Positions 7,942 through 42,371 of a stretch of DNA of 43,302 nucleotides are shown in pieces. The stretch lies in the IMG/VR virus record IMGVR_UViG_3300048838_000675, positions 1-43,302 of that record; one strand, written 5' to 3'. Position numbers and translations under genes: made by a program. A model generated the notes under the pieces. It worked only from the letters and a program-made list of their open reading frames with translations. It had not been told where the DNA came from and searched no databases. Each line of letters begins with the position of its first letter. Position 1 is the stretch's first letter. The stretch is from a virus.

Positions 7942-7947
7942 AAAAAT

Positions 7948-9106: not shown

Positions 9107-9277
9107 ATGAAAATAAAAGATGCAGTTAAAGTATTAAAAGAACACAATAAATGGCGGCGCGGGGATACAGACAACCAGACCGAACCGTATATCCTTGGCG
9201 CGGCTATTGATACCATAGTTTTATATTTTGATAAAGTCAGCTATAAAAATAAAAATAAATATTTAACGGATTTATAA
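9107..9277 (+). CDS. Small WRRG-motif phage protein
   Basis: A 56-residue protein. The string KEHNKWRRGDTD followed by EPYILGAAIDTIVLYF matches a motif common in short phage early proteins (a His-Asn-x-Trp-Arg-Arg-Gly helix, then a Leu-Gly-x-Ala-Ile-Asp helix). Those are uncharacterised. An AATAGG-like site precedes the ATG, and the next gene starts one base after its stop. Confidence 0.6.
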   Translation: MKIKDAVKVLKEHNKWRRGDTDNQTEPYILGAAIDTIVLYFDKVSYKNKNKYLTDL

Positions 9278-9278
9278 A

Positions 9279-9611
9279 ATGAAAGAATCCATAATCCAGC
9301 AACAAATCTGCGAATATTTATCCATTAGAGGAATATTCTTTTTTTCAATTCCGAATGAACATTACAATATAAGCCATAGGCAGTTAATGACCCTTAAAAA
9401 AATGGGCCTCGTTTCCGGTATGCCGGATTTATGTATATTGCACGGCGGGCGCGTTTATTTTTTGGAAGTAAAAAACGAGACAGGCACGCTGTCGGATAAC
9501 CAAAAAAACATACACGCGATATTATCGGATAAGGGTTATCCGGTGTCAATCGTTCGGAGTGTTGAGAATGTTGAGAGCGCGTTAAGATTGTGGGGGATAT
9601 TGAAATCATGA
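9279..9611 (+). CDS. VRR-NUC domain nuclease
   Basis: A 110-residue VRR-NUC (PD-(D/E)XK superfamily) protein: Gln8 in the first helix, GMPDLCIL with Asp50, YFLEVKNETGTLSDNQ giving Glu63-x-Lys65 and Gln75, then a final strand. It is about the length of standalone phage members. The family acts on branched or structured DNA. It overlaps the SF2 helicase gene, a pairing frequent in phages, suggesting joint DNA processing. Confidence 0.88.
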   Translation: MKESIIQQQICEYLSIRGIFFFSIPNEHYNISHRQLMTLKKMGLVSGMPDLCILHGGRVYFLEVKNETGTLSDNQKNIHAILSDKGYPVSIVRSVENVESALRLWGILKS

Positions 9612-11122
9612 TGCCACATTTACACATTGAACACCCACTCCGCCCCTACCAACTCGAAGCCGTCAAACAATTGCACGCCGGCGTAAACGCCGGACGCAAT
9701 CCGGTTTTTTCATCCCCCACGGGTACCGGAAAAACAAAAACCGCCGTCAAGTTTATTTCCGACCGCGTGAATTTTAAGGAACGGATTTTTATCCTGACCC
9801 CGCAGGTTGAGATTTTTAATCAATGGCTGATTGAATTTCAACACGCAGGGCTCGGACATATAACCGGATATATAAACGATAAAGGCGTAACCGGCCGCAA
9901 CAAGTCGATTTATGTTGTTATGCCGATGTCCCTGATAAATATTTTATCTGTACTGCCGGAAAAATTTAAGCCGGATGTTATTGTCACGGATGAATGCCAC
10001 CGCAGCGAGGCCGTAACATGGCAGGCGATTTATAATTTTTATCCACAGGCGCGGCGCGTAGGATTGACAGCCACGCCGGAGCGCACCGACGGGCAGGGGT
10101 TAATAAATACTTATGGCCAGATAATTCAGACAATCAATATGCAAGAGGCCATTGACGCGGGTTACCTCGTCCGCCCGCTGTTAATCGTGCCGGAGGTTTA
10201 CAAGTTGGATGTCCCTATCCAAAACGGAGAATTTAACACGCAAGAACAGGCCGCACTACTGGGCAAGACTCGAATTATTGGCGACGTGATAGGGCAGTAC
10301 GGCAAGGTATTCAACGGACTGCCGGTGATTGTTGCCTGTTCAACGCATGAGCACGCGGTCAAGATGACAGAGGCGTTCTGCGCTGCGGGCTGGAAGTTTG
10401 AACACATCCACAGTAAATTAAATCATCACGAAAGGGCAGGAATTTTAAAGCGTATAAGGTCAGGAAAAATAAATGGCGTTTGTACTGTTATGATAGGAGT
10501 TGAGGGCCTCGACATCCCCGGACTATATGGCCTGATATGGTTACGCCGTACGATGTCGATTACTATTTATTTACAGCTTATCGGTCGAATACTCCGCCCT
10601 ATGCCCGGCAAGAAATACGGCATAATCCTTGACCCGGTGGGTAACTGCTTTATTCACGGTAGGCCGGAGCTGCCACGCCGTTGGTCATTGATCGGACGCG
10701 AGGACGCGAGACGCGCCGCCGATGGGCAAGCCCCGAAAATGAAGATATGCCCGGTGTGCAGCGTGATGAACGCCGAGTCAAATGACACTTGCCATATATG
10801 CGGGTATAGCTTCGCAGAGGGGCAGCCGGTTGACGGCGCGGGGCGGAAACTGCCTGCAATGGTTGACGGCGATCTGGTATTGCTTGACGATATAGAGTTT
10901 GAGGCACGGGCAGCGGAGGACGCGGCGCGAATGGATGAGGAGCGCGAGCGACTGCGAATAGTCGGCGGGGCAGACGGCGCAGGGAATGGAGACGGCAGAA
11001 CCGGCGCGAGCACGGACGGGCAGCCGCTATACATAACGCAGGCGAAAAAAATGGACATATTAAAAACCGGACTTGAAAAGAGGCGCGGGATGTTCGCGGA
11101 GACGTTAAGAGAGTATTTGTAA
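9608..11122 (+). CDS. SF2 DEAD/DECH-box helicase with zinc knuckle
   Basis: I use the ATG at 9608, 11 bases after GGGGG, giving 504 residues; an in-frame GTG at 9590 is less likely. Visible motifs: the Q-like RPYQLEAV near 12-19, Walker A PTGTGKT (37-43), DECH (128-131), GLTATPER (152-159), and a C-terminal helicase core ending QLIGRILRP. Residues about 380-402 form a zinc ribbon, CPVC...CHICGY. The tail is Ala/Glu/Arg-rich. It is an ATP-dependent DNA helicase/translocase, probably working with the overlapping VRR-NUC nuclease. Confidence 0.9.
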   Translation: MMPHLHIEHPLRPYQLEAVKQLHAGVNAGRNPVFSSPTGTGKTKTAVKFISDRVNFKERIFILTPQVEIFNQWLIEFQHAGLGHITGYINDKGVTGRNKSIYVVMPMSLINILSVLPEKFKPDVIVTDECHRSEAVTWQAIYNFYPQARRVGLTATPERTDGQGLINTYGQIIQTINMQEAIDAGYLVRPLLIVPEVYKLDVPIQNGEFNTQEQAALLGKTRIIGDVIGQYGKVFNGLPVIVACSTHEHAVKMTEAFCAAGWKFEHIHSKLNHHERAGILKRIRSGKINGVCTVMIGVEGLDIPGLYGLIWLRRTMSITIYLQLIGRILRPMPGKKYGIILDPVGNCFIHGRPELPRRWSLIGREDARRAADGQAPKMKICPVCSVMNAESNDTCHICGYSFAEGQPVDGAGRKLPAMVDGDLVLLDDIEFEARAAEDAARMDEERERLRIVGGADGAGNGDGRTGASTDGQPLYITQAKKMDILKTGLEKRRGMFAETLREYL

Positions 11123-12105: not shown

Positions 12106-12362
12106 ACGTATCAACAAAATTATCAACACTATTCACAGCGGTAATCCTCACTTTTACCGCCTGTGAATATTCAGAAACAGACGAATCGTACAAGTGCAAA
12201 AAATACAAAAATCTATGCGGGAATTATACCATTGATTTTTTTATTTGTTGCAAAACTATTGATAATGATGTCAATACAAATGACTGTTATTATCAGGTTG
12301 AAAAAGGATATATAAAAAAATATGATTTTATCAGTGAGGTTGTAAATGATAACTGTCAATAG
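12102..12362 (+). CDS. Small Cys-rich lipoprotein or secreted protein
   Basis: An 86-residue protein. Residues 5-20 are hydrophobic and end in FTAC, a reasonable lipobox with the modified Cys at 21. The mature part has six or more further Cys residues (YKCKK, NLCGN, FFICC, NDCYY, NDNCQ), unusual for a cytoplasmic phage protein and suggesting disulfides in the periplasm. An early-expressed lipoprotein could block superinfection at the envelope, but that is inference. Confidence 0.55.
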   Translation: MNVSTKLSTLFTAVILTFTACEYSETDESYKCKKYKNLCGNYTIDFFICCKTIDNDVNTNDCYYQVEKGYIKKYDFISEVVNDNCQ

Positions 12363-12531
12363 CGAGTTTTATCGCTGTCCAGTATGCGGATATTTTTTTT
12401 TAGCTGATAAAAAAACAGATAAATACTGCCGCCCCGAATGCGGACGCATGAGTTTTTTAAGTGCCCTGAATCGGTATCCTGTAATTAAGCCGTTTGACAC
12501 GTTTATTGAATTGAGTCATGCCGACTTGTAA
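12346..12531 (+). CDS. Small zinc-finger protein
   Basis: A 61-residue protein with YRCPVCGYFF and KYCRPECGR, two Cys pairs of treble-clef or zinc-ribbon type. It begins inside the end of the lipoprotein gene and overlaps the following gene by 14 bp. Function unknown. Confidence 0.55.
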   Translation: MITVNSEFYRCPVCGYFFLADKKTDKYCRPECGRMSFLSALNRYPVIKPFDTFIELSHADL

Positions 12532-12826
12532 ATCATGCGGGCGCGAGTTTAGGCCGTTATCGGTCAAGCAGTTACGATGTCGGCCGTGTCAATGGAATTA
12601 TCCGCGAGACTATGCAAGGTCACACTATGAGCCGAAAATAAAAGACTCGATAACAAAAAAAGATGATAAAGAACAGGCACTCACAGCAAGTCTTAAAAAT
12701 GAACAGTACAAAAAATTATATGAATTGACTAAAATACAAAAGGATATACAGTTGAAATTAAAGTTTACGGATAAGACTGAAAAGCTGAAACATATGGCAA
12801 GGAATACGATGAGGGGGATAAAATGA
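12518..12826 (+). CDS. Zinc-ribbon and helical-tail protein
   Basis: A 102-residue protein with CKSCGREF (4-11) and RCRPCQW (20-26), then a long basic/charged helical tail. The plan (N-terminal zinc knuckle plus coiled tail) mirrors the gene at 7227. Its stop overlaps the next ATG. Function unknown. Confidence 0.6.
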   Translation: MPTCKSCGREFRPLSVKQLRCRPCQWNYPRDYARSHYEPKIKDSITKKDDKEQALTASLKNEQYKKLYELTKIQKDIQLKLKFTDKTEKLKHMARNTMRGIK

Positions 12827-25842: not shown

Positions 25843-26529
25843 TTACGACGCCGCCGGATAAGTCCTCATGTAAACTTGCGCAGGGCCTTGACCTTTAGTC
25901 CAGCCGTAGTCAGCTTTTAAAACATCTTTAAGCGCAATGTTGTTTGATATGCTGTTCAGTATTGCCGGTACGATAAGCCAGTTAGTAACCTTGCCCTCTG
26001 CTGTCAGATTGCCCTTATTCATTAGGATAAAAAGCAGTAAATCGGTATCGTCTTTTTCGGTTACTGAATATGTCCCCTCTCCGTCGTCCTCAACGATTGT
26101 ATAGAATTTTTTTAGAAAATCCTTTGTTACGCTGACAAGTGCGTCGGTTGTCTCGTCAAATCTCAACATCGTATTGATCGAGCCAGACAGCGCGGTATAT
26201 CCGTCAGGGATGTTTGTAGTATACGGATAATCACATGAGTCTGTTGTCTCGATAACACCCATCTCTCCAGATACTTCAACGTCAACTTTACAGACTTCAG
26301 TCAGTGTCAGCGGCCATACGCTATCGCCGCTCGCGAGTGTTATCGCGTCGCCGCTTTCTTCTGGTGTCTTGAATACTGAACCAAGCGCAAGCTCAGGGAT
26401 TGCCGGAGTTGTGCCGAGTGTTGCTATTTTGTACCATGTGTCTTTAAGCAATACCCCAGTAGTTACGAGCGTCCCCTTTGCGGCTGAATAAAGAATTGAA
26501 TCCGCGCCTTTGTGTTTAATTGATGCCAT
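25843..26529 (-). CDS. Major tail (tube) protein
   Basis: A 228-residue protein with the beta-rich, Thr/Gly/Asp-rich composition of siphophage tube subunits: DTWYKIATLG, CKVDVEVSGEMGVIETTDSC and SGSINTMLRFDETTD. It lies upstream of the chaperones and downstream of the terminator-like protein, the standard place. A good site precedes the ATG. Confidence 0.75.
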   Translation of the reverse strand: MASIKHKGADSILYSAAKGTLVTTGVLLKDTWYKIATLGTTPAIPELALGSVFKTPEESGDAITLASGDSVWPLTLTEVCKVDVEVSGEMGVIETTDSCDYPYTTNIPDGYTALSGSINTMLRFDETTDALVSVTKDFLKKFYTIVEDDGEGTYSVTEKDDTDLLLFILMNKGNLTAEGKVTNWLIVPAILNSISNNIALKDVLKADYGWTKGQGPAQVYMRTYPAAS

Positions 26530-27931: not shown

Positions 27932-29017
27932 CTAAGACTCGCTGAATGTTCCCGCACTGCGTGCAGTATGGTTAACGTTAGCCGGTACATAGATATATCT
28001 TGTCGAGCTCCTGAGCCAAGTCTGAACAGGATCTTTAGTAGTGTAGGTATCGAATACAAGATCACCCACCGCCCTGACTGCCTCGCCGTTATCGCCGAGA
28101 ACGTCAACGCCTCGAAGGACTTTGTATCGTCTCGCGCCTATGCCGAACATAACAGCCTCATCGTCAGGAAAAAACGCCGCTGCGGTTGCGCCCTCATAAG
28201 CGGTATATTTATCCTCCGGGCTGTATGAGCAGAGCCATATCGGAGTAGCTTTGCCCGGTATGCGATATCTGCCGATAAGATACAAGTCTTGAGTGTTCAT
28301 CAGCTCTGCCGGGGCCATTTGCGATTCAATTACCGTATTCATCGCGTTTGCCTGCATACGAGTTAATACAGTAGAATCAGATTCAAGCTCCTTGAGCCAC
28401 TTATCGCCGAGGATGCAAACTATATTACCGGGAGACGCGCCCTGCGCCCTGTACGCATCGTAAAGTTCGCCGAGTGCTGTATCAATATCCGCGCCTACCG
28501 CCGTAAAATCATAAGTCACTGACTGCCCGGCATCACGGCCAAAGTCATACTCAAGGCCGATGTCGAAACCGGATGAGCCGAGCGGGCTGAATTTACCATT
28601 ACGGATAACATCAACTGCGAGTTTGCATTTTGTTGCGTAGTGAGCCGCCGCGTGCTGACTGATTATCTGATTGATAAGTACTGCCTCATGTGACGCCTGT
28701 GAGGCTGTCTCTTCAAGCCCAGCGACAACCGCGTCCCTCATTCGCTCGCTGATACCGGTTTTTTCAGATGTTCGCGGTACTTCGATAATATTACCTGTCC
28801 CGCCTTTGTACTGCCTGACTTCTGCCTGCTGACCGTCGCGCCTGAACGCCACGCCCCACGGGGAAACGATCAGAGAGTCAATTGCGAATTCTGCTTGAGT
28901 ACTCACGTCCGGAGTCGAAAAAAGGAATTGATCTATTCCGTTTCTACCGGCGCGCAGGGTATTTGATACCCTTTCATAAAGAACCTTTGCGGTTCTTGTC
29001 ATTGTTCCGAGTGCCAT
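27932..29017 (-). CDS. Major capsid protein, lambda gpE family
   Basis: A 361-residue protein of normal length for gpE-type capsids. Family-like features: a GGTGNIIEVPRTSEKTG loop, GISERMRDAVVAG, and a C-terminal GVDVLGDNGEAVRAVGDLVF plus YIYVPANVNH. It follows the decoration protein and protease, exactly as in lambda (C-D-E). It forms the HK97-fold shell. Confidence 0.88.
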   Translation of the reverse strand: MALGTMTRTAKVLYERVSNTLRAGRNGIDQFLFSTPDVSTQAEFAIDSLIVSPWGVAFRRDGQQAEVRQYKGGTGNIIEVPRTSEKTGISERMRDAVVAGLEETASQASHEAVLINQIISQHAAAHYATKCKLAVDVIRNGKFSPLGSSGFDIGLEYDFGRDAGQSVTYDFTAVGADIDTALGELYDAYRAQGASPGNIVCILGDKWLKELESDSTVLTRMQANAMNTVIESQMAPAELMNTQDLYLIGRYRIPGKATPIWLCSYSPEDKYTAYEGATAAAFFPDDEAVMFGIGARRYKVLRGVDVLGDNGEAVRAVGDLVFDTYTTKDPVQTWLRSSTRYIYVPANVNHTARSAGTFSES

Positions 29018-32298: not shown

Positions 32299-32360
32299 TT
32301 ATTCTTTTATGCCTTTTTAATTGTTAATTTTTTACAGTTTTTTTTAATTTTTTACAAAAA

Positions 32361-32410
32361 AAACTTAAAAAAACTTATAAATTTTAGTATATACTAAAAT
32401 AAACTTATAA
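32361..32410. promoter_or_regulatory. Perfect palindrome flanked by 10-bp direct repeats
   Basis: ATTTTAGTATATACTAAAAT (32381-32400) is a perfect 20-bp palindrome. It is flanked on both sides by AAACTTATAA (32371-32380 and 32401-32410), with AAACTTAAAA before the left copy. It overlaps or lies just downstream of the expected start of the minus-strand transcript, ideal for a dimeric repressor or late regulator. A-runs repeat every 10 bp, so the DNA may also be curved. Confidence 0.65.
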
Positions 32411-32415
32411 AAAGG

Positions 32416-32444
32416 ACATAAAACATAAAAACTTTAATTGTCAA
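32416..32444 (-). promoter_or_regulatory. Candidate promoter for the head and tail operon
   Basis: Read on the minus strand: TTGACA, a 17-base spacer, TTATGT followed by C. The same two boxes with the same spacing occur before the HNH gene. It would drive gpW, portal and the remaining structural genes, separated from the upstream operon by a terminator. Confidence 0.6.
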
Positions 32445-32506
32445 GCGTTTTTTCTGGTTTATGTATAAAATTATTAATATTTTAATCAGGTTATTTTGAT
32501 ATGTAT

Positions 32507-32532
32507 AAAAAAACCCGCCATTTCTGACGGGT
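32507..32532 (-). terminator. Intrinsic terminator of the lysis/accessory operon
   Basis: On the minus strand ACCCGTCA pairs with TGGCGGGT (one G-T pair) around a GAAA tetraloop, followed by seven Ts. It lies about 50 bp after the ferredoxin stop. Confidence 0.88.
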
Positions 32533-32582
32533 AAATTATATTTTGGAGAGTTTATGGAGAATAAAACGAGGACTATTGTATT

Positions 32583-32780
32583 TTATTTTATGCATTCACC
32601 TGTGCATTCAAGACCGGCCTGACATACCGCGCATCCGAGGCATTTTTCAGGTTTAAATACTATGCCATATAATCCACCCGACGCGATAAACGCATCACCC
32701 GCGCACGTTTCAAGGCACTTCCCGCAGCCGATACAATCTGACGCGAGAAAAACAACCTTGCGCGCGTTCATTTTATGCAT
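32583..32780 (-). CDS. Phage-encoded two-cluster [4Fe-4S] ferredoxin
   Basis: A 65-residue protein with CIGCGKCLETC (Cys16, 19, 22, 26), the exact CxxCxxCxxxC of a [4Fe-4S] ferredoxin, and CLGCAVCQAGLEC (Cys47, 50, 53, 59) plus Cys63, a variant second site. No signal peptide, so it should act in the cytoplasm as a one-electron carrier. Its start overlaps the lipoprotein gene's end, and a terminator follows. It may supply electrons to a host or phage radical or SAM enzyme; the partner is unknown. It could alternatively be structural rather than redox. Confidence 0.8.
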   Translation of the reverse strand: MHKMNARKVVFLASDCIGCGKCLETCAGDAFIASGGLYGIVFKPEKCLGCAVCQAGLECTGECIK

Positions 32781-33079
32781 TCCAGATAATCAGCATATTT
32801 TTTGTATTGTGTTTTATCAAGTCCGGCCTCGCCGTATATCATAGCTTTACAGTGCTTTTCTTTTACCTGCTGACGGATCTCCGCGCGGGCAGTCCGGCAT
32901 TCATTATAAACCGTACCAACAAAGGCGCTGTCGCCCTGACCGGCAGCGGCATAATATTTCATAACCGTATAAAAATCATTGCATTCGTCCGGCTGCCCCT
33001 CGATATTTACAATATCAAAATTACGGCAGCCGATAAAAAAAATAAAAATAAAAATTAAAGCTATTATTATTTTATTCAT
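32768..33079 (-). CDS. Lipoprotein, possible outer-membrane spanin
   Basis: A 103-residue protein with a hydrophobic signal ending FFIGC (lipobox, Cys18). The mature part has several more Cys residues and a charged helix. It overlaps the preceding TM protein gene by 4 bp. A TM-protein/lipoprotein pair near an endolysin is the usual form of a two-component spanin, but the mature domain is longer and less proline-rich than typical. Confidence in lipidation is higher than in the spanin role. Confidence 0.6.
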   Translation of the reverse strand: MNKIIIALIFIFIFFIGCRNFDIVNIEGQPDECNDFYTVMKYYAAAGQGDSAFVGTVYNECRTARAEIRQQVKEKHCKAMIYGEAGLDKTQYKKYADYLECIK

Positions 33080-33279
33080 TTCTTGACCTCTTCAACCGCC
33101 GGCGCAGACTCGTCACCCGGCGCGGCCTCGTCTACAATCTCAACCGGCCCGGCCTTTATTTTATCGGCTCTGATAATCTTGTATATTACCGCAGACATTA
33201 ACGCCGCGACAAGCGCAAGTAATACCGCCCATATTATCGTTTCAAGCGTCGGATCGATTGACTCGAAATATTTAAACAT
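33076..33279 (-). CDS. Small TM protein, possible inner-membrane spanin or holin
   Basis: A 67-residue protein with one long hydrophobic helix (about residues 15-36) followed by a short basic stretch and an acidic Pro/Glu tail. It precedes the lipoprotein gene with overlap. It is either the inner-membrane partner of that lipoprotein or a holin-like protein. Confidence 0.55.
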   Translation of the reverse strand: MFKYFESIDPTLETIIWAVLLALVAALMSAVIYKIIRADKIKAGPVEIVDEAAPGDESAPAVEEVKK

Positions 33280-33394
33280 GATTTAATCCCTCCGGTATTT
33301 TAACAGTCACGCGATCTGCAAACTCTGATTGCTTGCCTTTATTCCACTGACTCACGGGTCTAAAATATCCTACTACACGTTGAAAAATTTCACA
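33272..33394 (-). pseudogene. Glycyl-radical (NrdD C-terminal-like) mini-gene, 3' fragment
   Basis: A reading frame with no start codon of its own begins CEIFQRVVGYFRPVSQWNKG and continues KQSEFADR to a stop inside the next gene. This is the glycyl-radical signature of class III ribonucleotide reductases (RVxGYxRPV-x2-WN-x-GK, with the radical on the Gly of VGY). Phages often carry such a mini-gene of 40-60 codons. The upstream frame is cut off by the HNH gene, whose stop overlaps the fragment. A matching 5' fragment lies on the other side of that gene. Confidence 0.7.
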
Positions 33395-33974
33395 AGGTAC
33401 TATTTTTAAAGTATTCAAAATGATAACCCCCCGCTGTTTTTTTATTATCTGTCAAACATGAACTTATAAGGTTTATGCTTTTATTTATAGTTTTTGCGGC
33501 ATCAGTTACAGAATTAAAAATAATTCCAGTTTCAGCGCAAATTATTTTTTTTCTTCTTGTTTTATATATTGCGCTATCTCTTTTCCCTGACATAAACCCT
33601 TTCAACCCTTTATTCCATGCCTCGCGTTTATGAATATTATTATGTTCAAAAAAATCTATCTGGATTAAATTTGAAATATGATTATTTTCTTTATTGCCAT
33701 CTTTATGATGAATTATTTTATTTTTATCAATATCACCTATGAAATTTTCATATACCAATCTATGTATTGAAATTCTTTTATTTTTAGAATTTAAAAATAA
33801 CTCAATAGAAAAATATCCGTTTGGTCTTTTATTTTGCTTCAATATTTTTCCTACTCTTTTTCTTTCAAACTCTCCATATTTATTTATAGACTTTTCAATT
33901 CTATCAATGCTTTTAATTTGACCGTATTCGTTTATTTGATAATTATTAAATCCTTTTACGATTTTCCATTCCAT
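33390..33974 (-). CDS. HNH homing endonuclease (NUMOD4-HNH-NUMOD1)
   Basis: A 194-residue protein. Residues 1-30 form a NUMOD4 motif (EWKIVKGFNNYQINEYGQIKS), then an HNH core (His71, HHKDGNKENN at 89-98), and a C-terminal NUMOD1-like DNA-binding helix (TGIIFNSVTDAAKTIN). It is AT-rich compared with its neighbours. It has its own promoter and sits between two halves of a glycyl-radical mini-gene, which it seems to have interrupted. It cleaves a specific DNA site to spread itself. Confidence 0.9.
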   Translation of the reverse strand: MEWKIVKGFNNYQINEYGQIKSIDRIEKSINKYGEFERKRVGKILKQNKRPNGYFSIELFLNSKNKRISIHRLVYENFIGDIDKNKIIHHKDGNKENNHISNLIQIDFFEHNNIHKREAWNKGLKGFMSGKRDSAIYKTRRKKIICAETGIIFNSVTDAAKTINKSINLISSCLTDNKKTAGGYHFEYFKNSTL

Positions 33975-34002
33975 ATATTTTTACCTCACATTATTTTTTA
34001 TG

Positions 34003-34031
34003 ACATAAAAATATTTTAATAACACTGTCAA
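34003..34031 (-). promoter_or_regulatory. Candidate promoter for the HNH gene
   Basis: On the minus strand: TTGACA, 17-base spacer, TTATGT then C, identical boxes and spacing to the head-operon promoter. It lies within the inserted segment, so the HNH gene may carry its own promoter. Confidence 0.5.
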
Positions 34032-34039
34032 GTAGAATA

Positions 34040-34063
34040 TTATTCTTTTTTAAGCTCGTCCAT
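34040..34063 (-). pseudogene. Glycyl-radical mini-gene, 5' fragment
   Basis: ATG after GGAGGTGGGCCTG encodes MDELKKE, then meets a stop at the boundary of the HNH insertion. Its ATG overlaps the end of the preceding small TM gene, as usual in this genome. Removing 33395-34042 would give MDELKKE-CEIFQRVVGYF, a plausible intact mini-protein. The match is inferred, since seven residues carry little information. Confidence 0.5.
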
Positions 34064-34151
34064 CAGGCCCACCTCCAGTTGTCGCGTAAATTGTAAAAAG
34101 TAAAAACATAATCGATAATACAGTAATAAGCAATATCAAATTATCCATCAT
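34050..34151 (-). CDS. Tiny single-TM protein
   Basis: A 33-residue frame, MMDNLILLITVLSIMFLLF then TIYATTGGGPDGRA: one transmembrane helix and a short tail. It follows the endolysin gene and ends with a Shine-Dalgarno-bearing overlap into the mini-gene fragment. It could be a holin or antiholin, but its ribosome site is weak. Confidence 0.4.
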   Translation of the reverse strand: MMDNLILLITVLSIMFLLFTIYATTGGGPDGRA

Positions 34152-34162
34152 GCGCGAGTCCA

Positions 34163-34585
34163 TTAAAGGTCAGCCGCGCTTGTAATCGTGCGCTTATATC
34201 TGCCGTTGTCCTCTTCAAAAAAGAAAGGCATTTTTTGCAGTTCGCCGGTCTGTTTATTTCGCGGTCGATTGCCGCCGAGGTCAACGTGTATATGCACGTT
34301 CGGATGTTTGCCCGCCTCGGTTACGCGCTCGGTGTTATCAATTCCAGCGCGAAATAGCCAGTTATCAATCATGTATTTAAACAACTCGTTGTATTCTCGT
34401 ATCGGCGCAAAATTACCGTTATTTTTAAGCGTGATGTCAATCGCGTTTCCCGGCAGCGCGTGAGGACTTGGATTTATATCCCCCTCGCGGTCTCGCGATG
34501 TTATCCGCAGAGATAGTCCGGGTTTATCCATAATTTCGCAGTATTCCATAAAAAAGTCAGTAAATATTTCTTCGCAGTTGCTCAT
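34163..34585 (-). CDS. M15-family peptidase endolysin
   Basis: A 140-residue single-domain enzyme with the zinc-binding signature of peptidase M15: SPHALPGNAIDI (His42, Asp50) and HPNVHIHVDLGG (His98/His100). It would cut peptide cross-links or L-Ala-D-Glu bonds of peptidoglycan at lysis. It has no signal peptide, so a holin is needed for export; the gene before it, overlapping by 4 bp, encodes a TM protein. Confidence 0.85.
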   Translation of the reverse strand: MSNCEEIFTDFFMEYCEIMDKPGLSLRITSRDREGDINPSPHALPGNAIDITLKNNGNFAPIREYNELFKYMIDNWLFRAGIDNTERVTEAGKHPNVHIHVDLGGNRPRNKQTGELQKMPFFFEEDNGRYKRTITSAADL

Positions 34586-34776
34586 TTTTTATGCCTCTCT
34601 GAACAGATTGCTTTTATCGCGCTAATGTCGTTCCGATCATCATTAGTGCGTTTAAACAGTTCGCTGATGTCACTGTCGATGTTTGAAACATAGCGATTAA
34701 CAATAAAACCAAAGATGCCCCAACTACCTGCGAGAACAGCCACGAGGGCCACAATAATTTTTTGTAAATCGTGCAT
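34582..34776 (-). CDS. Holin-like single-TM protein
   Basis: A 64-residue protein with a hydrophobic helix (about 7-25) and a charged C-terminal helix (NIDSDISELFKRTNDDRNDI), similar in layout to small XhlA-type or class III holins. It overlaps the endolysin start, the classic lysis arrangement. Confidence 0.6.
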   Translation of the reverse strand: MHDLQKIIVALVAVLAGSWGIFGFIVNRYVSNIDSDISELFKRTNDDRNDISAIKAICSERHKK

Positions 34777-34802
34777 TTCATTTTCCTGCCTCTATCACGT
34801 TA

Positions 34803-35060
34803 TTATTTTTTCGCGAGTCTCGGAAATATTAAATCCCGCGCACCCTCGTTTTTTTCAATCGAGTTATAGCAATGTTTACGCTGATAAAAAAATATGTTAT
34901 CAATTATTTTTGCAATTAAAGAATCGGGCGCGACACGCCCGACGCGTGAGGATATTGTCTCGTCAGGGTCTCCAAGTAATATCGCGTTTGCGAGCTGATC
35001 AACCGCGATAAAAAGACTTTGAAAGTATTTTATTATATACTGAATTATTGTTTTTATCAT
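34803..35060 (-). CDS. Conserved phage lysis-region protein
   Basis: An 85-residue protein with LANAILLGDPDETISSRVGR, then a helix and QRKHCYNSIEKNEGARDLIFP. The GDPDETxSSR...HC signature is widespread in small proteins next to lysis genes of many tailed phages, without known function. It overlaps the next upstream gene by 4 bp. Confidence 0.65.
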   Translation of the reverse strand: MIKTIIQYIIKYFQSLFIAVDQLANAILLGDPDETISSRVGRVAPDSLIAKIIDNIFFYQRKHCYNSIEKNEGARDLIFPRLAKK

Positions 35061-35569
35061 GTTAGGGATGTCCCGTAAACGTGACCGTAAAATTTTACTT
35101 TAACTGTTCGCGCACTCGTTGTGCTATCTGAAAAACCCGCTGATATTTTTGTATTAGCCGGTTGTTGAGGAACCTGTACAGGCATTGCAGATTCCCTTGA
35201 AAAGTTAGCAGTACGGCCAACGTCAACGGCTCCGATCTTTACTTCTGCCCCTGCAAGTCCTGCGAAAATATCAATCATACCGTAAAGCGCGTCTGATATA
35301 TCCCATACAGAGCACCAGTGCAAGTCAAAGTCTTTAATTATTGTATCGGCAGGTATTATTTCAATAATATTTCCAGTTTCGGCCCATGCCCCCGCCGCGC
35401 TTGTTAGCGTAACCGGTACGGCCTTGTCAGGATATACAAAGGCCGCCCCGTGAACATGATAATATCCCGTACGAATAAAGCCCATCATGTCGTCAGCGTG
35501 CGGGACATACGGCACGTCCACAAGTGACATTTTAGTCCCTATTACATCTCCTTTACCGTTGCCTATCAT
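35057..35569 (-). CDS. Beta-rich, virion-like protein
   Basis: A 170-residue protein with no Lys/Arg-rich enzyme motif. It is Gly/Ala/Val/Thr-rich and reads as a beta sandwich (GYYHVHGAAFVYPDKAVPVTL, TVKVKFYGHVYG). A strong GGGGGG site precedes it. Together with the 102-residue gene before it, it looks like a capsid-surface or spike component. Lying next to glycosyltransferases, it may be their target; that is inference. Confidence 0.5.
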   Translation of the reverse strand: MIGNGKGDVIGTKMSLVDVPYVPHADDMMGFIRTGYYHVHGAAFVYPDKAVPVTLTSAAGAWAETGNIIEIIPADTIIKDFDLHWCSVWDISDALYGMIDIFAGLAGAEVKIGAVDVGRTANFSRESAMPVQVPQQPANTKISAGFSDSTTSARTVKVKFYGHVYGTSLT

Positions 35570-35585
35570 ATCAATCCCCCCTTAT

Positions 35586-35894
35586 TTATGCCGTCCATAC
35601 TACAAGTCGCCCCTGATCGCCCGGAGCGCCGCCGTCATCACAAAAAACATAAACGTCAATGTTTGCGCTGCTGCTGATTACTTCCTGTTCGGGATGGTCT
35701 TGAAATAATATATAGCCTTCGTCTTTTATCTGATCGACTGTCGGCGCGGATCCACCTGTCGCGCGGATCGTGCATAGGTATGTCATTTGACGGCCTATTG
35801 ATCGATGTTTGTTGACCGTGCCGGATGTTTTATTTGTTACAATTTTAATTACTTGACCCTGTGTAAATCCTTTAACTTCAACCGCAACTGCCAT
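35586..35894 (-). CDS. Small beta-rich protein of unknown function
   Basis: A 102-residue protein (VEVKGFTQGQVIKIVTNKT...SANIDVYVFCDDGGAPGDQG) with alternating strands and no enzyme motif. It is placed between a glycosyltransferase and the 170-residue virion-like gene, and probably belongs with the latter. Confidence 0.5.
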   Translation of the reverse strand: MAVAVEVKGFTQGQVIKIVTNKTSGTVNKHRSIGRQMTYLCTIRATGGSAPTVDQIKDEGYILFQDHPEQEVISSSANIDVYVFCDDGGAPGDQGRLVVWTA

Positions 35895-35895
35895 A

Positions 35896-36756
35896 TTATG
35901 CCCCCTGTATGTCTCGCGTCATTATATCGGATATAAAAACTTGATACTCTGATTTGTCAATTATTTTTACAACGCTCTTTAAAAATAATTTTTCAGCTAT
36001 TTTCAAAGGGATTTCTTTAATCTCGCCTTTCTCACCTCTGCAATCTGCCGGACTTCGGACGCGATCTAAAAAATATACAATCGCTGTCATCCGGCCGCGT
36101 GCGTCTCGGGCTCCTTCACCGTAATCGAGTTTAGCACCGCGCCCCTTGCCCTCTTGCGCTTTTGCCACGATCAGGCCCTCTATCCAGTTAATCGGCATCC
36201 GCAAGTCCTCGGTTAACTGCCGTGAGTAATAGTGATCGCCGGCTGTTTTATCGTGCCATGTCGCTTTTAATCTATGGTCTGTATGTAATAAAAAACATTC
36301 AGTCTGAAAACTCTTCTGCCCCCGCCAGTGCCGAGGCCATATATTCCCGTTGCCACGATCTGACCGCGCAATATTTACATGGGTTTTTTTTGCGCGACAA
36401 ATAAACCGCTCGATTGAGTCAGGCGAAACATACATATCATCATCGTCCATGAAATGATACCAGCCCTCGCCGTGTTTATCAACCGGTATTGATTCAAGCA
36501 GTTTATTGCAATACAAATTATACGGCGCGTTTCCCATGTTCGGGCCGTTTTTGCGCTCGCCTCTGATTATTATATCGCCTTGCGCGTAGTCGTCAACGGG
36601 ATTATCAGTATGAACGATTGTAATAATATTCGGGTACGTTTGAGACTTGACCGATTCAAACATACGCTTGAAAAACTTCGGGCGGTTCGATGTACGGATT
36701 AAAATATAGCAGGGTGGGTAGTCTTGTTTTTTTGTTTCGGTTTCTTTTTCAGTCAT
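35896..36756 (-). CDS. GT-A (family 2-like) glycosyltransferase
   Basis: A 286-residue protein beginning with a nucleotide-sugar fold: YILIRTSNRPKFFKRMFESV (17-36), TIVHTDNP and the metal-binding MDDDDMY (103-109, DDDD). A later basic segment and WIEGLIVAKAQEGKGRG follow. It would transfer a sugar from a UDP/GDP donor. It overlaps the PRTase-HAD gene by 4 bp. Confidence 0.75.
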   Translation of the reverse strand: MTEKETETKKQDYPPCYILIRTSNRPKFFKRMFESVKSQTYPNIITIVHTDNPVDDYAQGDIIIRGERKNGPNMGNAPYNLYCNKLLESIPVDKHGEGWYHFMDDDDMYVSPDSIERFICRAKKTHVNIARSDRGNGNIWPRHWRGQKSFQTECFLLHTDHRLKATWHDKTAGDHYYSRQLTEDLRMPINWIEGLIVAKAQEGKGRGAKLDYGEGARDARGRMTAIVYFLDRVRSPADCRGEKGEIKEIPLKIAEKLFLKSVVKIIDKSEYQVFISDIMTRDIQGA

Positions 36757-37622
36757 TTTTTATTTACCTCTTCGTTACAATATTTTTTTTTATATAATGT
36801 CATATTATCAATTGATATTGAGGGAATTTTTTTTCCTATTTTTTCAGCAAGAGCATTTTCGCTTTCAATCATCAAGTTGCATTTATTATCAACAAGATAT
36901 TTTATTTTATCAGTAGATCTTTTATTTTTTTTCCGCTCCGCAGTATTTTTGTATTCTGCCATGCATAAAACTTCATATTTTATATTATTTTTTTCCAACC
37001 ATTGCGAGGTTATTTTTCTATATTTACCAAGCCGAGATGTAATTATTGCTTTTATTTCAAATCCGGGCTTAAATTTTAATGGTGCGTTTTCTATATATTC
37101 AATATATTTTTTTTCATTTTCATCTTCATTGAACGGGGGGTCAGGGCATAAAACCCCGTCAATGTCAACGCCCCATTTTTTGGAATTTTCTCGCGTCATT
37201 ATGTGCCATTCAAAAATTTGCGGATTAGGATTTATTTGATAATATTTCATGTATTCCGGCATTTTCCAGCCGCCATATATTGCAGCGTAATCAATATTGT
37301 ATTTTTCTGATAATTTTTTTTCATTTATTTTTTTTAACACCGCGTTATGTGACGCCCCGCTTGAATATGAATCATCTATTATCAATATATTTTTTTTATT
37401 TTCTTTTTGAATATCAATTCTAAATCCTGAGTTATATCCCTTCTCTGTTTCAATAAAATAATCAAGACTTGAGACATCAATAGAATTTAATTCAGATAAA
37501 ATTAACGCGGGAAACATTCCGGATCTGGGGACTCCGACATACAAATCGTATTTGGGTAGATTTACAGAAAAATTATAAACATCTTGTGCAAGATTATGGT
37601 ATGATTTCCATGTTTTAATCAT
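36753..37622 (-). CDS. Phosphoribosyltransferase-HAD phosphatase fusion
   Basis: From the ATG at 37622, 289 residues in two domains. Residues 1-125 are a type I phosphoribosyltransferase: PRPP loop ILIIDDSYSSGAS at 79-91 and a VGVPRSGM loop at 29-36. Residues 150-285 are a HAD hydrolase: DIDGVLC (153-159, the nucleophile Asp and acid-base Asp), TSR (195-197), Lys240, and LMIESENALA where motif IV is ES instead of the usual DD. It may make and process a ribose-phosphate intermediate for the surrounding sugar-modifying genes. It is AT-rich. Confidence 0.75.
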   Translation of the reverse strand: MIKTWKSYHNLAQDVYNFSVNLPKYDLYVGVPRSGMFPALILSELNSIDVSSLDYFIETEKGYNSGFRIDIQKENKKNILIIDDSYSSGASHNAVLKKINEKKLSEKYNIDYAAIYGGWKMPEYMKYYQINPNPQIFEWHIMTRENSKKWGVDIDGVLCPDPPFNEDENEKKYIEYIENAPLKFKPGFEIKAIITSRLGKYRKITSQWLEKNNIKYEVLCMAEYKNTAERKKNKRSTDKIKYLVDNKCNLMIESENALAEKIGKKIPSISIDNMTLYKKKYCNEEVNKK

Positions 37623-38313
37623 CAATATATACAAGCTCCGTTAATTCAGGCTTAACATAATAATCTTTTTTATCAAGATAATTATTTATGTCTTTTAAAA
37701 TCCAGTCAAGATAATCTTTGTCCATTTTGTTTTTATTTTGCGTTATGCTATTCGGTTGTGTCCTTCTTAAGAATAAACCGCCCGAGGGATAACTAATATC
37801 AATTCCTATTCCTTCTATCCTTTTGTAGAAATCTTTATCCTCAAATATTCTGTAATTTCTATACCCGCCAATTTGCGTTAATACCTGATGTGTTATTGTA
37901 ATCGCGCCCATAGCTCGCAACCCAATTTTTTTAGATTTCAAATTTTCATCTGTCCGGATGGCAAGAGCACGGCAAGCGCCATGCTTGACGGCTGTTATTA
38001 CATTTTTAAAAATATAATCATCGAGCATAATATCATCGCTGTCAAATATCATATATAAATCCGCAGGCGATAAATACAATAACGAGTTACGCATGACCGC
38101 TACGCCTTTATTTTTAAAGCTCATCCAAAATTTTATTTTATTATTTTTTAATACTTCGGCGGTTTTTTCGCATCCGTCTACTCCAATTCTAATATCAATT
38201 TCAAAATTATCTAAAATATTTTGTTTTTTAATAGAATCAAGAGTATGCAATATGTATTTTTCAGTCTTAAACGCCGGAATAATTATTGCTATTTTTAATT
38301 TTTTATTTTTCAT
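37615..38313 (-). CDS. Family 2 glycosyltransferase
   Basis: From the ATG at 38313, 232 residues. IAIIIPAFKTEKYILHTLDSI opens the GT2 fold; DLYMIFDSDDIMLDD (86-99) holds the DxD metal site; RAMGAITITHQVLTQIGGY and FEDKDFYKRI give the acceptor-side ED motif. It overlaps the methyltransferase gene before it and the PRTase-HAD gene after it. It is strongly AT-rich. Sugar and acceptor are unknown. Confidence 0.85.
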   Translation of the reverse strand: MKNKKLKIAIIIPAFKTEKYILHTLDSIKKQNILDNFEIDIRIGVDGCEKTAEVLKNNKIKFWMSFKNKGVAVMRNSLLYLSPADLYMIFDSDDIMLDDYIFKNVITAVKHGACRALAIRTDENLKSKKIGLRAMGAITITHQVLTQIGGYRNYRIFEDKDFYKRIEGIGIDISYPSGGLFLRRTQPNSITQNKNKMDKDYLDWILKDINNYLDKKDYYVKPELTELVYIDD

Positions 38314-38971
38314 TTTTTTTCTCAAAAATAAAAATTTCTCCGCTTATATTATCAGTTTTAACATTCCAGCCCTTAAATCTTTTTGTAAAATCTTTTCCGT
38401 ATCGCCTGACGTGTTCAATACCTCCCGGAAAATATCTTTCATAATATTCCTGTGGAGGAAAATTTTCTGTCTTTTCAAGTTTTTCAAAAAAAGGAATCAT
38501 TATAAAAGCTATGCCGGAAGGCTTTAGAATGCGATTCAATTCTGACATTGCCATTATGTCGTCTTTGACGTGCTCAAGAACGTGTTTGCAAATTATTACG
38601 TCAAAACTTTTATCTTCAAAAATTAAATTTTGAATGTCGGTTATTACATCAATTTTTCCGACTTTCATCCCTTCCGGCTTATAAACAATATCGGCGGTAA
38701 TACATTCGCCGCATAATTCCCTGACTTTTTTCTCAATAGAGGCGTGAGGAGAAAAATATAAAACTTTTTTATCCGACAAGTTAATGCTTTTTATAAAATT
38801 AAAAAATTGCCTTTGCCTTAAAACTGATTTGCATACTCTACAATAAACATTCGGCCTGCCCTGTGGATCTCTATACCCGTCAAATTCTTTAAATTCGTGA
38901 TATCCAGTATTTCCGCAAATCTCGCAAGGTCCACCCTCATATCTGTTTTTGGTTAATTTTTGTTTTTCCAT
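38303..38971 (-). CDS. SAM-dependent methyltransferase with zinc knuckle
   Basis: From the ATG at 38971, 222 residues. A CEIC (16-19) / CRVC (44-47) zinc knuckle precedes a type 11 methyltransferase: VLYFSPHAS (70-78), the acidic loop ITADIVY, and FDVIICKHVLEHVKDD (123-138) with the HVLEHV post-I motif. Such enzymes often methylate sugars or small substrates in glycan pathways. It overlaps the next glycosyltransferase gene. Confidence 0.8.
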   Translation of the reverse strand: MEKQKLTKNRYEGGPCEICGNTGYHEFKEFDGYRDPQGRPNVYCRVCKSVLRQRQFFNFIKSINLSDKKVLYFSPHASIEKKVRELCGECITADIVYKPEGMKVGKIDVITDIQNLIFEDKSFDVIICKHVLEHVKDDIMAMSELNRILKPSGIAFIMIPFFEKLEKTENFPPQEYYERYFPGGIEHVRRYGKDFTKRFKGWNVKTDNISGEIFIFEKKNEK

Positions 38972-38972
38972 T

Positions 38973-39581
38973 TTATCCAACCTGAATAACAATAGTTTTC
39001 TGAAATTCTTTTTTTACAACCGGCATATCTAAAATCATAACCACGCGCGCGTCAAGGCCGGATAGCCATTCCGGTATTTTTTCAATCAGCTCGTCAACCG
39101 TGATTGAAACCGGATCTGTTTTATTTACTGACTTTGATATCTCGCCCGTGTGCTCTTGCCGTTTATCGTATTCAAGCATTATCAGACCGCCCGCCTTGAC
39201 CTGTCCCGCCCATACGCGCAGGGTTTCAACCGGATTAAAAGCATGGTCAAAACTATTGGAATATATAAAATCAAATTTACCTATCCATTCGATATTAACT
39301 TTGTTAAAATCCCATTTGACGGTATTGTCTGAAATTACTCCGCCGATTTCAGAGCCGATGACTTCCATGCCCCCTAAATGCTTCATAAACCATTGCTGCT
39401 CAATTCCCTGTCGTACTCCGTGACATAGACCTCTCATCGCGTTCGGAATAGTTGCGTTTATAAAATCAGATAAATATTCTATATTTTTTTCAACCGCCCA
39501 GAGATTCCATCTCTTGCGGTTAAATGCCGCCGTCTGACATTCGACATACTCATTATAATTTTTGTATTTATAGACTTTCAT
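38973..39581 (-). CDS. Methyltransferase-like protein
   Basis: A 202-residue protein with a Rossmann-like core: GLCHGVRQGIEQQWFMKH (51-68) in the place of motif I, GMEVIGSEIG (71-80), FDFIYSNSFDHAFNPVET (103-120) as the post-II motif, and GGLIMLEYD. The usual GxGxG is replaced by CHGVRQG, so the SAM loop is atypical. It probably acts with the adjacent methyltransferase and glycosyltransferase. Confidence 0.65.
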   Translation of the reverse strand: MKVYKYKNYNEYVECQTAAFNRKRWNLWAVEKNIEYLSDFINATIPNAMRGLCHGVRQGIEQQWFMKHLGGMEVIGSEIGGVISDNTVKWDFNKVNIEWIGKFDFIYSNSFDHAFNPVETLRVWAGQVKAGGLIMLEYDKRQEHTGEISKSVNKTDPVSITVDELIEKIPEWLSGLDARVVMILDMPVVKKEFQKTIVIQVG

Positions 39582-40307
39582 TTATTCAATATCCCCCTTT
39601 TCGATTAGTTCTAAAAATTCTATGTTTTCAATAGCGTTAAAATCATTTTTTTTGTCAATGGTTATATCTTCCGGCCTCAAATGCTCGCGCGAAAATTCCC
39701 ACGCGGCAAATATAACTTTAAAGTCATCGTCAAATGCCGCGTTAACTTTCCATAGTTTAGCTATCTTTTTTTTCTCAATCATTTTTTCAAGTTTCCACGC
39801 CTGACAGCAGGCCTTTCTCCATAGGTCGGTAAAATATTGCTCATAGTCATGCTGTCCAAAAATATGGATACCGCCGTCCCATGTTTTAAATCCGTGTTCG
39901 GCCATTCGCTCGCGGATATAGCTTTCGGGTTTTAATTTTGAAAAACTGTCATCGACATATTGCAATGCCATTTTTAATAAATCTGTCCGATAGATATGAA
40001 CGCCCGCGCGGCGTGAACACATGAAAGTTTTATCCGCTGTTTTACCATCGAGACAAAAAACATTCCGCTCCATGCCTTCGAGTTCGCGCACCGCCCGCCC
40101 GATAGTGTCTTTATATAATAAAACATCCGCGTCAATTACTGCGGTAAATTCCGCGCCGATCTCAATCGCTTTTATGTATGTCTGCCGTATAGATTCCGCG
40201 AACGGTTCAGCGCGTATAACGTGGACATCGCCCTGCTGTTCGGCAAGTTCAATACATTTTTTTTCTGTTCGCTCACCGGCGGCGCGGATTATTATTTGTT
40301 GTTTCAT
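39582..40307 (-). CDS. GT-A fold glycosyltransferase-like protein
   Basis: A 241-residue protein with QQIIIRAAGERTEKKCIELA as first strand and helix and TAVIDADVLLYKDT (55-68), a DxD motif at 59-61, typical of nucleotide-sugar transferases. MCSRRAGVHIYRTDLL and DGGIHIFGQHDYE follow. It starts right after the 55-residue gene. No donor or acceptor can be named. Confidence 0.65.
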   Translation of the reverse strand: MKQQIIIRAAGERTEKKCIELAEQQGDVHVIRAEPFAESIRQTYIKAIEIGAEFTAVIDADVLLYKDTIGRAVRELEGMERNVFCLDGKTADKTFMCSRRAGVHIYRTDLLKMALQYVDDSFSKLKPESYIRERMAEHGFKTWDGGIHIFGQHDYEQYFTDLWRKACCQAWKLEKMIEKKKIAKLWKVNAAFDDDFKVIFAAWEFSREHLRPEDITIDKKNDFNAIENIEFLELIEKGDIE

Positions 40308-40308
40308 A

Positions 40309-40476
40309 TTATTTTAATCCCTGCTTTAACCATAAATTAAAAATACATAATCTAAAAGTTATCGGATGATTTTCAATCATAAAGACTGTCAGGTTTCCCA
40401 GACAAAAACAAATATAAAATTTTCTTAAATTAAAAATTTTAGTTCTGATATAAATATTTTTTTTTGCAAAATACAT
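40309..40476 (-). CDS. Small basic protein after terminase
   Basis: A 55-residue frame with a perfect AGGAGG, overlapping the terminase stop, six bases before the ATG. It is Lys/Phe/Leu-rich, ending NHPITFRLCIFNLWLKQGLK. It may be an unrecognised small product of the accessory block. Function unknown. Confidence 0.55.
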   Translation of the reverse strand: MYFAKKNIYIRTKIFNLRKFYICFCLGNLTVFMIENHPITFRLCIFNLWLKQGLK

Positions 40477-40478
40477 TT

Positions 40479-42371
40479 TTACCTCCTGAAAATCTTATCT
40501 TCATAACTCGCCCATAGCTCCGGCGTCCATAGCGTCAAGTTCAATCGCTCCGCCGCTGCTCTATTTAATATATATGTATCAAGTGGCTCGTTTCTGTCAA
40601 ATACTTTTCTGTATCCCCATTTACCCGGCTCGATCTCCGCGAATACCTCTGACACAAAACCTTTAAAATATTCCTCGCCTGCGTCTTTTGGAAAATGTAT
40701 CTCACCCGATGACCCGCGCGGTAAATCGACCTTTACGAACGTCTCATCTTTAAGCTCATTGACCGCCACGTCGTATCGTCTCTTCAACGGAGACTGACGC
40801 TTGACTCGTTCCTCTTTCAGTATCATATCTTTCAGCTTTGCGTTACCTCGGCAAGCAATCACCCGCGCCGCGTTACGCGCAACGACCTCATAGACAATAT
40901 GCTCCGTTGTTGTATTAGTTCCCGCGTCTCTATCTTCGTCAGGATTGTACCCCGTGTCAATAGCTGTAAGTGTAATTGGTATCTCTATATTTTTCAGCGG
41001 ATATTTTTTAGTCTGAATAAAAGTTTGAAAGTCAGTCCATACCCGCGCCGTGCGCTGTCCGGTCTCGCCGTAAAAATATTGATAGTCAATAACCCATGAC
41101 TCCATGTCAACGCCCCACGCAACAACCTGCAGTTCAATTCTATTTTTCTGTACGTCCGCGCCCGCCGTTAATAGCAATCCACCCGCAGGGATAACGCCCT
41201 TGATATAATCCTCGGCGCGTGCGCGTAATTCCTCCCATGATTTTTTTTCTGCCCGTGACTCCCACGGCTCGCCGAGAATGTTAATTATAAACGCTTTTAA
41301 CTTTGTTATGTTCTGCCCGTAACCGGTTTCAGTCCAGTCCTGACAAACGCGCGTCCATGTGTAAAACATAATAGGGCTCATTAAGTTTGATATATGATAA
41401 CTTCTATACGCAGGATTAACCGGCCGCGCCGTCGGTATCCACTGCCCGCCCGCAAGTAAATCTTGTTTTTGATATTCCTGTATCTGCCCTTTGCATTTTT
41501 CGCAGATATAATGTACTGACTCCGGGATCACCTGATCGACTTTCTCTATCCGTTCCGATTGAAAAGTCAGTCCATAGTCCCGCCCCTCAGTCATCATCCG
41601 CAGTACTTGTAATTCACCGCACAACGGGCAGCGGCAATTATAATATCGTTGGTCTCCCTCTAAAAAATTTCTGTATATACGGCCTTGAGTATTTGTCGGA
41701 GTGCTGATTTTAAATATTTTCAAATTCCGCGCCGTGACACCACGCACGGCAAATAGCGCCTCCGGGTCTCCCTGTCCTTTCAGTTCGTATCCGGCCTCGT
41801 CTAATTCATCCATCAAAATGAGGTCCCAGCTAAATGACTTCGCGTCTGCTATACTATTCCATGATGTCATCATCATTCTGTACCCGCCGGAAAACTCTTT
41901 CCAGAAAGTATTATCGCCCGTCTTTTTTTTCATCCGCGAGCTGATCGGCTTCACGCTGTCGGCAAGCCCGCTATGATCGATCAAGACATCTATCGCCGCG
42001 CTTGACCTTTGCTTTGCCATACTCAACGATGAAATAATATATAATATATTATGCAGTCTGTTTTTTATCGCCCATCCGATGACATGCTCGATAGTTGTTG
42101 TCGCGAGGCTCTGCGTTGATTTCATGACAGTTATTTGTTTTATGCCGCTGTCAGGATGAGCGCAGTCACAAATATCTACCATGTGCGGCGCGATAGCGTG
42201 GTCAATTTTGCCCGGGCGCGCGGTAACTCCCTGTGGTAAATATCTATTTTCTGCCGCCCACTCTGACGGTAGTTCGAGGTATGAAATTATTTTCCATTTT
42301 TCAATAGTTTTTAAAATTTCTTGCCGGGCGTGTTCGTCTATGTCGATTATGAGGTTAGGTTTTTTTGTCAT
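40479..42371 (-). CDS. Terminase large subunit, lambda gpA family
   Basis: A 630-residue packaging ATPase/nuclease of normal gpA length. The ATPase half has an atypical Walker-type loop at MKSTQSLATTTIEHVIGWAI and Walker B LILMDELDEAG; a CPLCGE...CEKC zinc pair lies in the middle. The nuclease half begins LLTAGADVQKNRIELQVVAWG and includes AIDTGYNPDED. It would cut cos and power DNA translocation through the portal. It overlaps the gene before it by 4 bp. Confidence 0.92.
   Translation of the reverse strand: MTKKPNLIIDIDEHARQEILKTIEKWKIISYLELPSEWAAENRYLPQGVTARPGKIDHAIAPHMVDICDCAHPDSGIKQITVMKSTQSLATTTIEHVIGWAIKNRLHNILYIISSLSMAKQRSSAAIDVLIDHSGLADSVKPISSRMKKKTGDNTFWKEFSGGYRMMMTSWNSIADAKSFSWDLILMDELDEAGYELKGQGDPEALFAVRGVTARNLKIFKISTPTNTQGRIYRNFLEGDQRYYNCRCPLCGELQVLRMMTEGRDYGLTFQSERIEKVDQVIPESVHYICEKCKGQIQEYQKQDLLAGGQWIPTARPVNPAYRSYHISNLMSPIMFYTWTRVCQDWTETGYGQNITKLKAFIINILGEPWESRAEKKSWEELRARAEDYIKGVIPAGGLLLTAGADVQKNRIELQVVAWGVDMESWVIDYQYFYGETGQRTARVWTDFQTFIQTKKYPLKNIEIPITLTAIDTGYNPDEDRDAGTNTTTEHIVYEVVARNAARVIACRGNAKLKDMILKEERVKRQSPLKRRYDVAVNELKDETFVKVDLPRGSSGEIHFPKDAGEEYFKGFVSEVFAEIEPGKWGYRKVFDRNEPLDTYILNRAAAERLNLTLWTPELWASYEDKIFRR

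Follow-up and report, generated by a model that had tools for sequence, protein, structure and literature searches.

A candidate virion glycosylation cassette between the terminase and head genes of an uncultured lambda/WO-like phage

Mycobacterium phages have been reported to carry glycans at the C-termini of their capsid and tail-tube proteins (Freeman 2023, as described in PMC12619734), and the authors of the Corndog study proposed that a cassette of this phage modifies the capsid (PMC4351075). In Firecracker, a relative of Corndog that served here as a positive control, an O-methyltransferase/glycosyltransferase (GT) cassette lies between the portal and protease genes, and the major capsid protein (MCP) and the major tail subunit both end in Ser. 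Phosphoribosyl pyrophosphate (PRPP)-dependent ribofuranosyltransferases that combine PRTase and HAD domains are also established (PMC11127046, PMC11231755, PMC10299916). Here, a block of six enzyme genes is analyzed in an uncultured phage, IMG/VR virus record IMGVR_UViG_3300048838_000675 (43,302 bases, the whole of which is called the window). The six open reading frames (ORFs), all on the minus strand, span 35896–40307 between the genes for the large terminase (TerL) and gpW. Judged by its gene content, placement, conservation and an association with MCP tails, the block probably glycosylates virion proteins, with the C-terminus of the MCP as the leading acceptor.

Reading away from TerL, the first gene (39582–40307; GC 0.42, typical of the phage) encodes a probable GT-A glycosyltransferase with a conserved DAD motif. 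GT 39582 has no Pfam or PDB match of its own; homologues at 50–52% occur in L002, L110 and L124 (L numbers denote the compared loci), and the L002 homologue gives a weak match to Glycos_transf_2 (E=0.02). The methyltransferase-like protein 38973 (38973–39581), whose position beside or close to GT 39582 is conserved, likewise has no family match of its own; its L002 homologue (12194–12793; 65%) matches Methyltransf_23 at E=0.008, and relatives are also present in L110 and, diverged, in L003. A low-GC cassette begins with an S-adenosylmethionine methyltransferase (38303–38971; GC 0.33; Pfam Methyltransf_11, 2.8e-12) and continues with a GT2 glycosyltransferase (37615–38313; GC 0.31; Pfam Glycos_transf_2, 1.3e-8, above the cut-off; TuaG model, 6e-9, under the curated cut-off), which has relatives in L002 and L114. 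The cassette also holds a two-domain PRTase-HAD protein (36753–37622; GC 0.29), a candidate PRPP-dependent ribofuranosyltransferase recognized from full-length bacterial and viral homologues and an AlphaFold2 (AF2) model. The last gene, GT 35896 (35896–36756; Pfam GT2, 5e-6, above the cut-off), encodes a GT-A glycosyltransferase of a phage family and is the proposed virion-protein glycosyltransferase. Family evidence is strong for the GT2 proteins 37615 and 35896, the methyltransferase 38303 and the PRTase-HAD protein, and weak, coming through homologues, for GT 39582 and methyltransferase 38973; to that extent the count of three GTs, two methyltransferases and a PRTase-HAD fusion given in a first-pass annotation of this DNA stands. 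The 4-bp overlaps described there are found at one junction only (36756/36753), the other junctions being an abutment, gaps of 1 bp, and overlaps that measure 8 and 11 bp.

Comparison with WO-like relatives separates the block into two parts. GC is 0.29–0.33 in genes 38303 to 36753 vs 0.40–0.44, near that of the neighboring structural genes, in 39582, 38973 and 35896. At the same site, L002 keeps all three of the latter, and L003 and L110 carry a relative of 38973 together with GT 35896, to which L110 adds GT 39582. The low-GC genes are replaced by other genes in L002, L003 and L110, with Methyltransf_24 proteins among the replacements in L002 and L003, and L114 combines GT 35896 with a different cassette, one of whose genes is related to GT2 37615. 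From these conserved and swapped genes, the TerL–gpW site is read as a mosaic cassette for modification, its core partly conserved and its middle open to exchange. Mosaicism, in the form of differing methyltransferases, GTs and sugar enzymes, is seen in WO-like and HK97-type cassettes, and Mu-like phages carry a single GT gene.

These phage types were recognized from the distribution of the GT 35896 family. Its profile identifies 29 viral loci (a few being overlapping or duplicate stretches), and clustering by gene neighborhood resolves three contexts, Mu-like, HK97-type and WO-like, all within virion operons. The Mu-like gene order runs from sheath through tube, GT and chaperone to tape measure (sheath and tape measure confirmed by PHROGs, tube and chaperone named from position), and the gap between tube and chaperone genes is 778–1001 bp in 16 loci with the GT vs at most 253 bp in 43 relatives lacking it. 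In the HK97-type loci (L130–L134) the order is protease, MCP, GT and head-tail adaptor, and in WO-like phages the relative of GT 35896 lies within the TerL–gpW block. In the GT phylogeny, a single well-supported group unites the HK97-type members and sets them apart from the Mu and WO members. Isolated phages yielded no counterpart: tblastn with the GT 35896 family found no match in 50,697 isolated phage records, and there was none for megablast of the block or for tblastn of the PRTase-HAD protein, its upstream methyltransferase and GT relatives.

A hint as to the acceptor comes from MCP C-termini. The window MCP (27932–29017, minus strand; Pfam PF03864 Phage_cap_E, 1.5e-14; PHROG major head protein), the proposed acceptor, ends in ...ARSAGTFSES, its last five codons occupying 27935–27949. 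A second candidate is the putative tail tube protein (25843–26529, minus strand), which has no family match, is named only from its position between the connector genes and the tape measure gene, and ends in ...RTYPAAS. Among Mu-like phages, all 15 distinct MCPs from GT carriers end in Ser, vs 2 of 39 from relatives lacking the GT, and the MCP tail past a conserved anchor is 19–21 residues long in the former vs 14–18 in the latter. Within the clade of GT carriers the last position is invariant (zero entropy), with positions -2 to -9 variable (1.8–2.9 bits), as would be expected of a terminal Ser under constraint. MCPs of HK97-type GT carriers end in Thr (6/6), and those of WO-like phages end in Ser in four of five cases (the window, L110, L122 and L123, the last two being on the same contigs as L002 and L003, respectively). 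Putative tail tubes of WO-like phages (n=4) end in Ser twice, in Thr once and in Ala once. With a single exception, the distinct full-length MCPs of GT carriers considered here end in Ser or Thr. Carriage of the GT is thus suggestively linked with a terminal Ser or Thr in the MCP, each link coming from one clade.

Several observations weigh against this link and the role built on it. On the Mu-like MCP tree, which was made without the last 18 residues, GT carriers form a single clade, so that the Ser-tail association there amounts to one evolutionary event and the raw Fisher value (p 1.6e-11, uncorrected for descent) overstates it. The HK97-type and WO-like MCP sets are small, the WO-like MCP of L114 ends in Ala despite the presence of the GT, and a terminal Ser or Thr also occurs in some MCPs of phages lacking the GT (L168, L188, L217 and L229). 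For the window's MCP type, no relative lacking the GT and with known context was found, and tblastn of the window MCP gave no match in isolated phages, so that these offer no such comparison for the WO-like type. The Mu-like GT adjoins the tube gene, yet in all but one case the tube C-terminus is not Ser or Thr. Furthermore, no homology to the cassette enzymes of Firecracker is detected: family hidden Markov models find no match among gp33–gp37 and gp39 of this phage, even at E=10.

The AF2 model of the PRTase-HAD protein (pLDDT 89) has two confident domains, a fold like that of purine PRTases and a HAD phosphatase. In an alignment of 34 sequences (residues numbered from a TTG start at 37634), the acidic pair D87–D88 of the PRPP site is invariant, as are D157 and D159 of the HAD motif, and T199 and K243 are nearly invariant. 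Plasmid homologues share 30–36% over most of the length, some of them in polysaccharide clusters (Paracoccus), and the 64 immediate neighbors of bacterial PRTase-HAD genes at 35 genome loci belong mostly to GT2, GT4, Wzy_C and Wzx-type families. A scan of viral contigs with the single sequence found no PRTase-HAD protein; an alignment built from the plasmid homologues found it in 11 viral loci. The gene immediately upstream encodes a methyltransferase in L098, L099, L101/L106, L102 and L131, and L131, of HK97 type, unites GT 35896 after the MCP gene with a methyltransferase, the PRTase-HAD protein and a UDP-glucose dehydrogenase. In L104 the PRTase-HAD gene directly follows the MCP gene. L101/L106 belongs to a large phage, in which a run of genes that appear glycan-related by eye (about 3786–10822) closes with the methyltransferase and the PRTase-HAD protein. 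Neither solved enzyme (Bcs3 or that of T. composti) was matched by profile or appeared among the best 50 fold matches; matches to RecA in the PDB fell on a short repeated segment and were discarded. By architecture and context the protein looks like a PRPP-dependent ribofuranosyltransferase, and the chance that it performs a ribofuranose step is about even.

Taken together, the block is probably a late-expressed virion-modification cassette, whose soluble GTs would act in the cytoplasm and assemble, directly on virion proteins, a short glycan with partial methylation. The acceptor would most likely be the C-terminal Ser of the MCP, perhaps with the tail tube in addition. GT 39582, methyltransferase 38973 and GT 35896 would form a resident core, GT 35896 being probably the enzyme that acts on the virion protein, and the low-GC insert (methyltransferase 38303, GT2 37615 and the PRTase-HAD protein) would provide variable outer sugars. 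A broader generalization is put forward more tentatively, at somewhat less than even chance: uncultured phages of at least three architectures may O-glycosylate capsid C-terminal Ser or Thr via an unrecognized GT family, with some, the present one among them, adding PRPP-derived ribofuranose by means of a PRTase-HAD protein. The latter would then be a phage-encoded ribofuranosyltransferase whose target is a virion.

Within the virion, the main acceptor could instead be the tail tube or the C1q-like protein 35057 described below. The GT adjoins the tail tube gene in Mu-like phages, the putative tube of the window ends in Ser, and GT 35896, 35586 and 35057 are consecutive in the window, with all three families present in L004. 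However, the C-termini of most Mu-like tubes are LA, TP or similar rather than Ser or Thr (a tube acceptor was rejected for these phages on that ground), homologues of 35057 occur in phages in whose available stretch no GT is seen (L006–L012), and it is the MCP that shows the difference in tail length, so that a different main acceptor is unlikely. The first-pass annotation had left the target as either virion proteins or the cell-surface glycan. The latter would mean that the enzymes alter the host surface during infection, for instance in superinfection exclusion, and the PRTase-HAD protein and GT2 do resemble capsule and O-antigen enzymes with bacterial homologues in exopolysaccharide clusters. 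Yet none of the six enzymes has a membrane segment (maximum 19-residue hydropathy at most 1.22), and the block contains no flippase, polymerase, lipid-carrier enzyme or lipid-carrier glycosyltransferase; O-antigen seroconversion of the GtrAB type relies on a membrane flippase and a polytopic GT, to which the six enzymes do not correspond. Nothing specific speaks for the cell surface, which also leaves the MCP tail association unexplained, and the fixed placement of the GT beside the MCP or tube gene in unrelated phages runs counter to it. This explanation is therefore rather improbable, and the virion half of the earlier alternative is favored by the fixed GT sites in three unrelated phage types and by the Ser/Thr ends of MCPs.

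Two further readings place the target in nucleic acids. DNA can be a substrate of phage GTs, and phage Thanatos has a pentose-modified cytosine (PMC12838424), so that glycosylated bases might be considered; but no hydroxymethylase, TET-like or base-synthesis gene is present among the Pfam-scanned window proteins (several small ORFs fall outside the scan), and the block sits among head and tail genes. Hypermodification of phage DNA is accordingly very improbable, and the earlier statement that the gene set matches no such pathway holds: the only DNA-modifying enzyme among the scanned proteins is a Dam-like methylase. This putative DNA N6-adenine methyltransferase (3514–4485; PF05869, 1.5e-19) adjoins a prim-pol/helicase gene. 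As for RNA, the HAD domain has a single meaningful PDB sequence match (E=4e-4), to the phosphatase domain of Pnkp1, a protein that belongs to an RNA repair complex (PMC4411300); this might imply that the PRTase-HAD protein, and perhaps the methyltransferase, serves RNA repair rather than glycans. Such a role was rejected because Pnkp1 is a kinase plus phosphatase, the match covers the phosphatase domain only, and the partner domain here is a PRTase; in addition, no RNA ligase or Hen1-like gene is recognized in the block, and the immediate neighbors in bacteria are polysaccharide genes. It is the least probable of the readings considered, and glycosylation of virion proteins remains the preferred one.

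The particle itself is, by gene content, lambda/WO-like, with TerL, a lambda-family portal, a ClpP-type protease, the Phage_cap_E capsid protein and a tape measure protein. TerL (40479–42371, minus strand) forms the upstream boundary of the block, at a distance of 171 bp from the first GT; tblastn gives 32% to WO-phage TerL over 93%, and 64–68% in L002 and L003. Insertion between TerL and gpW, as first annotated, is real, in that related phages hold a similar block in the same position, but the description was incomplete, as the interval (32299–40478, 8.2 kb) holds further genes: ORFs 34803, 34582 and 34163, lysis-like genes, small membrane proteins, an HNH/NUMOD gene and a 4Fe-4S protein. The HNH/NUMOD gene (33390–33974), encoding a NUMOD4/HNH homing endonuclease, is very AT-rich (GC 0.25) and is inserted in the late operon. 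The 4Fe-4S gene (32583–32780), for a small ferredoxin-like protein, lies between the block and gpW and has a counterpart in the same interval of L002 (14362–14544, 36%).

Next to GT 35896, the two proteins first annotated as beta-rich and virion-like fit the latter description. The product of 35057–35569 (minus strand) is predicted to be a C1q/TNF-like beta-sandwich protein, probably a virion decoration or fiber head: its AF2 model (pLDDT 80) is all-beta and matches the fold of C1q/collagen-type virion proteins weakly, and homologues lie between portal and protease genes in L004 and L007. The family is spread over different phages (L004, L006–L012), at times inside longer proteins (L012, 371 residues). 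The adjoining gene (35586–35894, minus strand) encodes a small virion-associated protein of 102 residues, whose homologues in L004 and L007 (39–41%) immediately follow the portal gene.

Other genes of related loci also deserve mention. Upstream of its packaging genes, L002 has a second, divergent operon (397–3547, minus strand) with a GT2, a sigma-70 region 4 protein and two methyltransferases. Just downstream of TerL in L003, on the opposite strand, lies an outer-membrane phospholipase A1 gene (9934–10698; PF02253, 5.9e-35), which suggests a Gram-negative host and possibly a role in lysis. Nucleotidyltransferase-like and LicD-like proteins, recognized by eye only, occur among the head genes of L132 (5268–5684 and 10179–10763) and L110 (6763–7320), and the head genes of such related cassettes include the UDP-glucose dehydrogenase of L131 (6396–7229; PHROG 2e-44). 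With regard to hosts, in 393 genomes from the phylum of a Spirochaetaceae locus the GT 35896 family was absent and a related MCP (22%) was found in one genome, and no related MCP was found in 398 genomes from the phylum of a Rhodocyclaceae locus. No tRNA was found in the window.

If the proposed role is correct, phage virion glycosylation, reported for mycobacteriophages, would reach far past that group, across three architectures, and the predicted single-residue acceptor offers a simple test at the last residue of the MCP. Glycosylated particles could differ in their contact with surfaces, defenses and immune systems, and the GT family could provide a new tool for glycosylating peptide C-termini. 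A phage PRPP-dependent ribofuranosyltransferase would introduce a donor chemistry rarely considered for virions.

How does the block compare with described systems? Like the gPRT-PRP enzymes (Klebsiella O4/O7 and the CriT-CrpP domains of Hib Bcs3), the PRTase-HAD protein joins a PRPP-type PRTase and a HAD phosphatase in one chain, and its bacterial homologues are embedded in polysaccharide clusters. It differs in domain order, PRTase preceding HAD in the window protein whereas the phosphatase of Bcs3 (374–591) precedes the transferase, and its PRTase fold is closest to purine PRTases, with neither the Bcs3 nor the T. composti enzyme among the profile matches or the best 50 fold matches. The mycobacteriophage system of Corndog and cluster O shares with the window the placement of GT and methyltransferase genes in a virion operon near portal, protease and MCP genes, and the terminal Ser of the Firecracker MCP and tail subunit recurs in the window MCP and putative tube. 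Unlike that system, the window block has a PRTase-HAD protein, and the architectures involved are WO-like, Mu-like and HK97-type. As read from these genomes, the cassette would represent a known kind of biology, mycobacteriophage virion glycosylation, with new enzyme families and in new contexts.

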